From a virus, in the IMG/VR virus record IMGVR_UViG_3300032304_000981, positions 1 through 21,718 of that record: 21,718 nucleotides of DNA; one strand, written 5' to 3'. The notes below the pieces were generated by a model, which was not told the origin of the DNA, did not search any database, and saw only the letters and a list, made by a program, of their open reading frames with translations. Each line of letters opens with the position of its first letter. The first letter of the stretch is position 1. Below, piece by piece: positions 7,128-14,009 of this stretch. The translations under genes were made by a program, and so were the position numbers.

Positions 7128-9431
7128 ATGGAATTCCTTGATTATATAGAAAATCTTGCGCCCGAGGGCGAAACCGCATTAATCGTACGGCAAAAACCAA
7201 TGCTTGATAATGGCCAGCTGCAGTTTCACGCAGACGGCGCCGTCAAGTGCACATGGCCAGCTTACTTACCCAAGCACAAACGTAAGGCGACCGAGAGCTG
7301 GTACGGCAACACCGCGTCGTTCATTAAAGACCGATTTACTGATGGGCGCCCTAGCGCGTCGGCTGCAAACTGTGACTACGTTTTGGTGATGATGTTGGAT
7401 GACATCGGCACCAAGTCTAAGACACCGCCGTTAGCCCCCACATGGATCATGGAGACGTCGCCCGGCTCGTTTCAGTGGGGTTACGCATTTTCCGAACAGC
7501 CCACCAAAGCCGACTTCGCTGCCGCTATCCGAGCGATCGCTGATGCAGGTTACACGGACCCTGGCGCCTGCAATCCGGTGCGCAACTTCCGGCTACCCGG
7601 CTCGATCAACCTGAAACCTGGCCGCGATCAGTTCGCCTCTCGGCTGGTCGAGTTCCACCCAGAGCGCGAGTATTCGCTCGACGACATCTGTACAGCGCTT
7701 GATGTGACGCCAGTTGAGGGCGTAGGTCTTGGACCCACACCGATCCGGCTGCAGGACAACGGCAATGATGACGTCATGCGCTGGCTCTCGGAGCAAGGAT
7801 TATTTCTGCGCCATACGAACCCCGAAGGCTGGGCTGGCGTCATCTGCCCGAACCACGCTGAGCACACCGACGGCAACCCCGAAGGCCGCTACCATCCCGC
7901 GAACCGCGCCTACTGCTGCCTGCACTCGCACTGCATTGACTTCGACTCGCAGACGTTTCTTGACTGGGTAGCGCAAGAGGGCGGTCCAAGACGCGCACCT
8001 GGCCTGCGTGACGAGCTGCTTGCGCAAGTGATGACAACAGCGCTTGCCAAGCTGCCTGACGCTGGCATGTTTGAGGATAACGCTGCGCGTATGATTAAGG
8101 ACGTCGAGATTAAGAACGAGCGCCGCGAATTAAATAAACTAGAAAAGGCCGATTGGTTTGAAAGGTTTGCATATGTACAAGAAGATGAAAGCTTTTTTGA
8201 TCTGGAAGATCGCCGGGAGATTTCTCGATCTACTTTTAACGCACTTTTCCGGCACATCCCATGCCGGTCCATACATAACGGCAGCAAAATTGAGGCGTCT
8301 ACGTGCTTCGACGAGAACCGCACAGCGGAAGGCGCTCATGCGCTGGTCGGCATAACCTACGCAGCAGGCGAACCAAAGATCGTCGAGCGTGAGGGCTTCA
8401 CCTACGGCAACCGCTGGCGCGACGCTCGGCCTGCAGGCATACCGGGCGACGTGACGCGATGGCTCGCGCACGTTGCGCGCATGATTCCGAACGACTTCGA
8501 GCGTGAGCACGTTTTGAACGCGCTGGCCTTCAAGGTCCAAAACCCGAACCACAAGATCAACCACGCTGTTTTAATCGGTGGGCACCCAGGATCCGGCAAG
8601 GACACCATGATGGCGCCATTCTTTTGGGCGATCGGCGGCAAGACTAAGCAGAACTGCAGTCTGGTCAAGAACGAGGACCTGAATTCGCAGTGGGGCTACG
8701 CGCTCGAATGCGAAGTGATGGAGATCGCGGAACTCCGTCAGTCTGAGGCACGCGACCGACGTGCGCTTGAGAACGCGCTAAAGCCCATCATTGCAGCGCC
8801 TCCAGAGCTGTTGCCGATCAACCGCAAGGGCCTGCACCCGTACATGGCTTTGAACCGCGTGTTCGTCGTCGCGTTTTCGAACGAGCGCGCAGCCATCTCG
8901 ATCCCGTCGAACGACCGACGCTGGTTCTGCATCTGGTCCGAGGCGGGCCTTCTGCCGGAAGCAGACGCGCTTGCACTCTGGCAGTGGTACCACTCGGGCG
9001 GCTTCGAGGCGATCGCATCCTACCTGCATACCCGCGACGTATCGGCCTTCAACCCTTCAGCGGCTCCACCGATGACGGAAGCAAAGGCGATTATGATCGA
9101 CCAGGGCCGCAGCTCGGGCGAGTCGTATCTGGTCGAGCTGATCGAGCGCCGCCTGTCTGAGTTTGCGTCTGGCGTCGTCGCGGGGCCATTCCACGCATTG
9201 TGCGACCGGCTGCAGAACGGCGTCACAGGACCGCAGAAGATATACCAGGCGGCACTACTGCACGCGCTACGCGAAGCTGGCTGGGTGGACATGGGCCGTC
9301 TGGCTTCGCGAGAGTACACGACCAAGAAGCATATATTCTGCGCGCCAGAGCTTGCCGGAACCAATAAATCAGAACTTCGGCGCATGGTCGAGGAAGTGCC
9401 GGCACCTGCAGCAGTGCGATTGATGAAATAA
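7128..9431 (+). CDS. Primase-helicase: RepB-type AEP primase fused to D5/VirE-like ATPase
   Basis: A 767-residue two-part replication protein. Residues 1-230 look like an archaeo-eukaryotic-type primase of the RepB class: MMLDDIG (acidic pair D91, D92), ETSPGSFQWGY (109-119) and RNFRLPGSINLKPG (152-165). A metal-binding linker follows, with C240, H243, C263, C264, H266, H268 and C269. The C-terminal half is a superfamily 3-like helicase: Walker A GHPGSGKDT (485-493, K491) and a downstream acidic segment near EVMEIAELRQ. The ATG at 7128 is preferred because it follows the hairpin and has AGGA upstream; longer in-frame starts would lie inside the polymerase gene. It should prime and unwind DNA for the polymerase. 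Confidence 0.9.
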   Translation: MEFLDYIENLAPEGETALIVRQKPMLDNGQLQFHADGAVKCTWPAYLPKHKRKATESWYGNTASFIKDRFTDGRPSASAANCDYVLVMMLDDIGTKSKTPPLAPTWIMETSPGSFQWGYAFSEQPTKADFAAAIRAIADAGYTDPGACNPVRNFRLPGSINLKPGRDQFASRLVEFHPEREYSLDDICTALDVTPVEGVGLGPTPIRLQDNGNDDVMRWLSEQGLFLRHTNPEGWAGVICPNHAEHTDGNPEGRYHPANRAYCCLHSHCIDFDSQTFLDWVAQEGGPRRAPGLRDELLAQVMTTALAKLPDAGMFEDNAARMIKDVEIKNERRELNKLEKADWFERFAYVQEDESFFDLEDRREISRSTFNALFRHIPCRSIHNGSKIEASTCFDENRTAEGAHALVGITYAAGEPKIVEREGFTYGNRWRDARPAGIPGDVTRWLAHVARMIPNDFEREHVLNALAFKVQNPNHKINHAVLIGGHPGSGKDTMMAPFFWAIGGKTKQNCSLVKNEDLNSQWGYALECEVMEIAELRQSEARDRRALENALKPIIAAPPELLPINRKGLHPYMALNRVFVVAFSNERAAISIPSNDRRWFCIWSEAGLLPEADALALWQWYHSGGFEAIASYLHTRDVSAFNPSAAPPMTEAKAIMIDQGRSSGESYLVELIERRLSEFASGVVAGPFHALCDRLQNGVTGPQKIYQAALLHALREAGWVDMGRLASREYTTKKHIFCAPELAGTNKSELRRMVEEVPAPAAVRLMK

Positions 9432-13403: not shown

Positions 13404-13431
13404 AGTATACGGGATTGTTTTGCAATGTCAA
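13404..13431 (-). promoter_or_regulatory. Near-consensus sigma70 promoter for the minus-strand cassette
   Basis: On the minus strand, a perfect TTGACA (13431-13426) is followed after 16 bases by TATACT (13409-13404). The start point should be near 13397, giving a 34-base leader with GGAG before the first cassette gene. An 11-base direct repeat flanks the -35 box. Confidence 0.8.
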
Positions 13432-13473: not shown

Positions 13474-13731
13474 TTTGTAGGCGATTTGTGGGCGCGTGTT
13501 AGCGGTTTGTAGGCGATTTGTGGGCAAGCGGCGCGGGTCTAAATGCTAGGCTGTATGCGGGTTTTGAGATTTGTAGGCAATGTTGTCATTCATTTGTTAG
13601 AGTTAAGAAAAAAAATATAATATATGGCTGTTTCGCCGTTCGCGCCGGTGGGAAACGCAGAAACGCAAAAAACGCGTAAGGGGTCGGAGCGATTTAAAAC
13701 GCATGACAATATCGCCTACATCGCCTACAAT
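13474..13731. repeat. Iteron-like array of TTTGTRGGC repeats
   Basis: A 20-base sequence (TTTGTAGGCGATTTGTGGGC) occurs perfectly at 13474-13493 and 13506-13525, a 32-base period. Each copy is itself two 11-base units (TTTGTAGGCGA, TTTGTGGGC). A fifth unit is at 13570-13578. Two inverted, slightly diverged units (ATCGCCTACATCGCCTACAA) lie at 13711-13730, just before the next gene. An A/T tract (13605-13625) lies between the direct and inverted copies. This is the form of an initiator-bound replication origin or of a multi-site operator. Which of the two cannot be told from sequence. Confidence 0.65.
13594..13621 (+). promoter_or_regulatory. Possible rightward promoter before the 80-residue gene
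   Basis: TTGTTA (13594-13599) and a perfect TATAAT (13616-13621) are 16 bases apart. The inverted iteron units at 13711-13730 lie in the leader, between this promoter and the gene start at 13767, where a bound protein could block transcription. Confidence 0.45.
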
Positions 13732-13766: not shown

Positions 13767-14009
13767 ATGCCTGCTGGCCGTCCCGCATCGGTTCGTACGC
13801 GATGGTTTACTCGCCCGCTTGACGATCGCGCCCGTTTGCTTTTGGGCGCTGCCGGCGCCGGCGATATATCTGCTGGCTTTTGGAATTCGCTTGATATCTT
13901 CGCCGCTTTGTACGCTCGCGGATATCGTCCGGATATGGATATCGAATTGTTTCTTGATAATCTGAGAGAATTTAACAATTCAAATCAGACGCCAATGGCC
14001 GACGATTGA
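13767..14009 (+). CDS. Hypothetical 80-residue protein, possible regulator
   Basis: The product begins MPAGRPASVRTRWFTRPLDD, a basic N-terminus of the GRP type seen in DNA-binding proteins. Helical segments follow (RARLLLGAAGAGDISAGFWN, LDIFAALYARGY), then an acidic tail (DMDIELFLDNLREFN). The ATG at 13767 has GGGGAG eight bases upstream; the in-frame TTG two codons earlier is less likely. It stands alone between two regulatory-looking non-coding regions and is read away from the iteron-like array, so a regulator or initiator acting on those repeats is a fair guess. No domain is recognised. Confidence 0.6.
   Translation: MPAGRPASVRTRWFTRPLDDRARLLLGAAGAGDISAGFWNSLDIFAALYARGYRPDMDIELFLDNLREFNNSNQTPMADD

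Follow-up and report, generated by a model that had tools for sequence, protein, structure and literature searches.

A repeat array in a family of podophages as a probable iteron-type replication origin read by the wing of the phage primase-helicase

Introduction

Upstream of its terminase genes, the viral record examined in this study (21,718 bp, a fragment from a freshwater phage, referred to in its full length as the window) carries a cluster of short repeats, first direct and then inverted, which raises the question of what the repeats are for and which phage protein reads them. The preliminary description had suggested an origin or a switch region bound by an initiator or a repressor, and had named as possible binders an 80-residue protein encoded beside the array and the HTH of a phosphoesterase. 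The comparison of related phage sequences presented here indicates that the array is very probably an iteron-type replication origin, and that it would be bound and read by the phage's own primase-helicase through a C-terminal wing.

The repeat array and its genomic setting

The iteron-like array seen earlier was confirmed and consists of five direct and two inverted 9-bp units around an A+T-rich tract (Table 1). The direct part contains two perfect 20-base copies (13474-13493 and 13506-13525, with a start-to-start distance of 32). Each copy comprises two units at a spacing of 11 bp, and the best definition of the unit is the 9-mer TGTRGGCRA. The 20-base exact repeat exceeds the longest one, 13 bases, seen in 500 dinucleotide shuffles of this intergenic sequence, and TGTRGGC occurred seven times compared to at most twice in 2000 shuffles. 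The closest near-complete relative (37,312 bp) has seven exact copies of TGTAGGCRA, every one of them inside the array. The A+T content of the spacer is 78%, compared to 46.7% for the whole window. The element preceding the inverted block was found at this place with at most two mismatches in 33 of 60 relatives, where the background best match averages 5.0 mismatches, and it is kept ahead of the inverted units although the unit sequences vary between phages.

Table 1. Features of the array, its surroundings and the primase-helicase gene in the window.
Feature	Position	Strand	Remarks
Primase-helicase	7128..9431	+	RepB_primase-like N-terminus, DUF5906 helicase core, C-terminal winged helix; proposed origin-binding initiator
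Wing-loop codons 725-732 (LASREYTT)	9300..9323	+	Residues covary with array word
Promoter-like site, leftward genes	13404..13431	-	TTGACA-16-TATACT, 11/12, consensus match only
Direct pair 1	13476..13495	+	TGTAGGCGA + TGTGGGCGC, spacing 11 bp
Direct pair 2	13508..13527	+	TGTAGGCGA + TGTGGGCAA
Fifth direct unit, TGTAGGCAA	about 13570-13580	+	Two units often present here in relatives
A+T-rich spacer	13579..13632		Position conserved in relatives; candidate DNA unwinding element
Conserved element AGCGATTTAAAA	13688..13699	+	Directly precedes inverted block; conserved in relatives
Promoter-like site overlapping inverted units	13703..13731	+	ATGACA-17-TACAAT, 10/12, consensus match only
Two inverted units	13712..13729	-	TGTAGGCGA x2, exact 9-bp period
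80-residue protein gene	13767..14009	+	Adjoins array; not specificity partner

The window encodes an endolysin, a SNF2-type helicase, a PD-(D/E)XK nuclease, a family-A DNA polymerase, the primase-helicase, a phosphoesterase, a terminase and a portal. The array is flanked on one side by a leftward block of small genes and on the other by the rightward gene for the 80-residue protein, followed by terS-like, terL and portal genes. The portal weakly resembles those of HMO-2011-like podophages, and a DNA similarity search against named phages gave no match. In the leftward operon, a GP88-family protein (PF17338; 12232-12876, minus strand) is 94-97% identical in several relatives and absent from others. 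The stop of the primase-helicase gene lies 4,043 bp from the first array unit. Its product scored 39.0 bits for DUF5906 (cut-off 27.6) and 21.8 bits for RepB_primase, which is below the cut-off of 24.3; the latter model scored above its cut-off in two relatives (L040 and L218).

Conservation of the array in related phages

Searches with the terminase, phosphoesterase and primase gathered several hundred related loci, among which dozens of podophages of ~37 kb carry the same array layout at the equivalent position ahead of the terminase genes. Complete-length relatives measure ~37-38 kb, and three of five have terminal repeats of 104-127 bp. In the layout that recurs upstream of the 80-residue gene, roughly three direct units come first, in many cases with an inverted unit after them; one or two further direct units and an A/T-rich stretch follow, and a AGCGATTTAAAA-like element then precedes two or three inverted units at an 8-9-bp period. 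A strict detector that was blind to protein sequence identified arrays in 73 of the 153 phages scanned, compared to none when 153 shuffled sequences were used; it found no array in the other 80 phages, some of which show degenerate or mixed arrays. The word spelled by the units differs between relatives (TGTGGGTCA, TGAGGGCAA, TGCACGTCA, TGTGGACAA, ATGGTCA, TAGTCA and others), yet the copies within one phage agree closely.

Several further features were observed in individual relatives. Four phages with KSR wings (L285, L310, L313 and L314) have enlarged arrays of 11-15 units. In others (including L183, L189, L193, L194, L196, L207, L337, L343 and L347), clusters of GTTAGTG/CACTAAC repeats spaced ~25-35 bp apart occur ~3 kb downstream of the primase and are distinct from the origin units. 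In a distant named phage (L360, MW202483.1), whose primase is 51% identical, a similar array is located 3.45-3.8 kb downstream of the primase stop; its word is TTGGTAG, its units surround an A/T stretch, and a second cluster, of GTTTACA repeats, lies nearby. A phage contig from a Rhodoferax metagenome assembly has a KSRRHD wing and many TGTGGACA units. L361 and L362, two phage-like contigs binned in one Rhodoferax metagenome assembly, differ in wings and words, and their binning is a possible hint of the host.

Covariation of the array word with the primase-helicase wing

Covariation was assessed in 87 phages, 66 of them non-redundant, in six clades defined by the primase core; words were permuted only within clades and were put in register by hand, with some ambiguous loci left out. 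Clade-restricted MI in the non-redundant phages ranked residues 726 (z = 13.1), 731 (z = 10.2), 727 (z = 7.8) and 728 (z = 7.4) first, second, third and fifth among 725 variable primase columns. At the level of single bases, residue 728 followed base 2 (z = 13.4), residue 727 followed base 3 (z = 7.0), and residue 726 followed bases 4, 5 and 6 (z = 9.8, 11.9 and 10.5, respectively). Primase column 326 scored slightly above residue 726 at base 6, and bases 7-8 tracked primase columns outside the wing. Across ten other proteins (~2,450 columns), z was at most 4.6, compared to 5.8-10.3 for residue 726 in the same phages. An earlier attempt, which combined an 8-residue sliding-window partial correlation with automatically computed word distances, failed to pick out the wing, although 726 and 727 came first as single columns; it was then replaced by hand-registered words and clade-restricted permutation.

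The short segment that tracks the word lies after the sequence W-x-D-x-G-R. AlphaFold models of the C-terminus gave a confident winged helix (pLDDT 86.6 for 110 residues) in the order H-E-H-H-E-wing-E, in which the covarying residues sit in the predicted loop joining the two wing strands. The helix preceding the wing (ALLHAL) is nearly invariant among the phages. Sequence and fold searches of the PDB returned no significant match and only weak winged-helix-like hits.

Pairs of phages with primases at least 95% identical outside the wing differed at 0.43 of eight wing residues when they shared a word and at 4.14 of eight when they did not. In the pair L322 and L027, the primases are 98.8% identical outside the wing, six of the eight wing residues differ, and so do the words (ATGGTCA versus TGAGGGCAA). 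A nucleotide comparison of three such near-identical pairs showed that differences around the wing are mostly silent, while those in the wing change amino acids. This pattern is more indicative of selection on the wing than of swapping of a tiny cassette.

The origin proposed in the preliminary description thus gains support from the covariation of units and wing, whereas its two candidate binders do not. The 80-residue protein is 97% identical in a phage with a different word (L164) and only 55% identical in one with the same word (L092), and its columns reach z values of at most 3.5, compared to 10.3 for wing residue 726. Of the array-bearing relatives that were searched, few were found to have the phosphoesterase. 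Cumulative GC skew, which had been suggested as a check, drifts almost steadily in five complete-length relatives with no turning point at the array, probably following gene orientation, and does not discriminate.

A partly readable wing-to-word code

Several wing sequences pair with particular words: HSR with TGTGGGTCA or TGTGGGCAA, MSR with TAGTCA, NTR with TGCACGTCA, KSR...D with TGTGGACAA, A/G/S-S-R with TGTNGGC, A/G/S-T-R with TGAGGGC or TGCGGGC, HS(A/S/H) with ATGGTCA, and AAQ with TCTGGGTCA. Some of these pairings, such as MSR with TAGTCA and NTR with TGCACGTCA, recur in distant backbones. An eight-class table of this kind assigned 92 of 122 phages correctly compared to 16.6 expected by permutation, a count that comes from the data used to build the table and ignores kinship. 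There are also exceptions: L331 and L333 share the wing of L334 but carry mostly TGTGGGCAA units rather than TGTGGACAA, and phages with KSRAHT have TGTGGGTCA.

The rule was fixed before two further scans, which provided 19 new phages, 12 of them with a detectable array. Wherever R728 was present, Arg728 went with G2 and Ser727 with T3, which is a weak test as nearly all were S-R. Lys726 with Asp731 was accompanied by GGA in four of five phages, while Lys726 with Met or Gln at 731 was accompanied by GGA in none of three and by GGT in all three. New phages with HSRDFNS carry TGTGTGCCA and thereby depart from the rule at base 5; the two ASH phages, with ATTGTCA, depart from it at base 3. Judged by these sequence pairings, the code is imperfect and partly readable. 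It is roughly an even question whether the relationship amounts to a near-colinear, reprogrammable code, in which three or four wing residues of a hexameric primase-helicase specify bases 2-6 and in which diversifying selection makes the family exchange its word and its wing jointly, time after time. If it does, the family would comprise many mutually orthogonal replicons, perhaps avoiding cross-initiation by co-infecting relatives or theft by satellites.

Alternative explanations for the array

There are several other potential explanations for the units. They may be operators of a transcriptional switch, at which the primase-helicase or another protein mainly represses divergent promoters while replication begins elsewhere. 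This is consistent with the position of the array between divergent gene blocks and with the promoter-like sites beside it; however, the covarying partner is a replicative primase-helicase and not a repressor, and two opposed sets of units around an A/T-rich tract form the layout described for PICI origins (PMC6092414), so that operators in place of an origin are unlikely. A second role as operator alongside the origin is possible, as one promoter-like match overlaps the inverted units, which would allow dual use as origin and switch. Less probable than operators in place of an origin is a function as packaging (cos/pac) sites to which the small terminase binds. The putative small terminase gene and terL do lie downstream of the array, but the small terminase was rejected as reader of the word: phages whose words differ have putative TerS proteins that are 84-93% identical, and the TerS columns reach only z = 3.6, compared to 9.2 for primase residue 726. 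Least probable of all is that the direct and inverted units, which are exact complements and change together, act by base pairing (as a cruciform or RNA hairpin) with compensatory mutation and no protein reader, since this does not predict covariation with primase wing residues and no Rfam match was found.

Proposed mechanism and implications

Under the favored explanation, an iteron-type origin read by the primase-helicase, the protein encoded ~4 kb to the left of the array would use its C-terminal winged-helix domain to bind the 9-bp units, probably forming oligomers on both the direct and the inverted set. The protein would then open the A+T-rich stretch between the sets, load the helicase ring and prime synthesis for the phage DNA polymerase. 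The word would be chosen by the wing loop and not by the conserved recognition helix, with residue 728 appearing to track base 2 (Arg with G), residue 727 base 3 (Ser with T, Thr with A or C), and residues 726 and 731 together bases 4-6, such that wing and array would change together between relatives.

A standing question is how specificity can shift jointly in an initiator and in every copy of its origin unit. About 90 natural phages, among them some whose primases are up to 98.8% identical outside eight residues, constitute a ready-made series in which it can be tested. Compared to the open-licence literature, the new elements are the podophage-family setting and the natural, partly readable wing-to-origin specificity code. 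These findings suggest that origins of iterons and an A/T tract, as known from satellites, are common among ordinary podophages as well, and they could yield a set of orthogonal replicons.

Comparison with known systems

Origins of SaPIs and Gram-negative PICIs are described as always having two iteron sets around an A/T-rich region (PMC6092414). DUF5906 also characterises the replication proteins of PICIs, which are encoded next to mapped origins (PMC10111431), and a statement in PMC7581432 citing Ubeda 2007 attributes origin recognition by the SaPI Rep helicase to its C-terminal domain. The podophage array resembles these systems in its short iterons in two sets flanking an A/T-rich region, in its DUF5906 replication protein, and in the C-terminal domain of the primase-helicase, which appears to set iteron specificity here as judged by covariation only. 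In contrast to SaPIs and PICIs, where the origin lies immediately 3' of the rep gene, the array lies ~4 kb from the initiator gene, and the specificity switch localises to the wing loop. In addition, those satellites carry int and alpA without structural genes of their own, while the window encodes terminase, portal and DNA polymerase; the element in question is a complete podophage of ~37 kb that has a DNA polymerase and a terminase of its own.

Phage P4 uses a fused primase-helicase initiator, alpha, with a cognate origin (ori/crr) of short units in both orientations. The podophage system shares the fused primase-helicase and, very probably, a cognate origin with short units in both orientations, but differs in unit sequence, in helicase family model (DUF5906) and in belonging to a separate phage family. 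The NCBIfam P4-type primase model did not match the window primase-helicase even at E values up to 1. The P4 alpha protein and its site are covered in PMC6092414.

In SCCmec, the isolated C-terminal domain of the Cch2 helicase binds origin direct repeats specifically (PMC7581432); that system differs in its five-nt repeats, chromosomal cassette, only three iterons and separate polymerase-primase. In the PLE satellites of Vibrio cholerae, RepA has a DNA-binding domain that covaries with the origin, replication occurs only with cognate pairs, and an origin-directed nuclease selects for specificity switching (PMC8263062). However, PLE RepA is a RepA_N initiator without primase or helicase activity, and PLEs have two specificity groups compared to the many words and residue-level pattern in these podophages. 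As the phages are not satellites and the P4 primase model does not match, the array is best classified as working like SaPI, PICI and P4 origins rather than as a member of those families.
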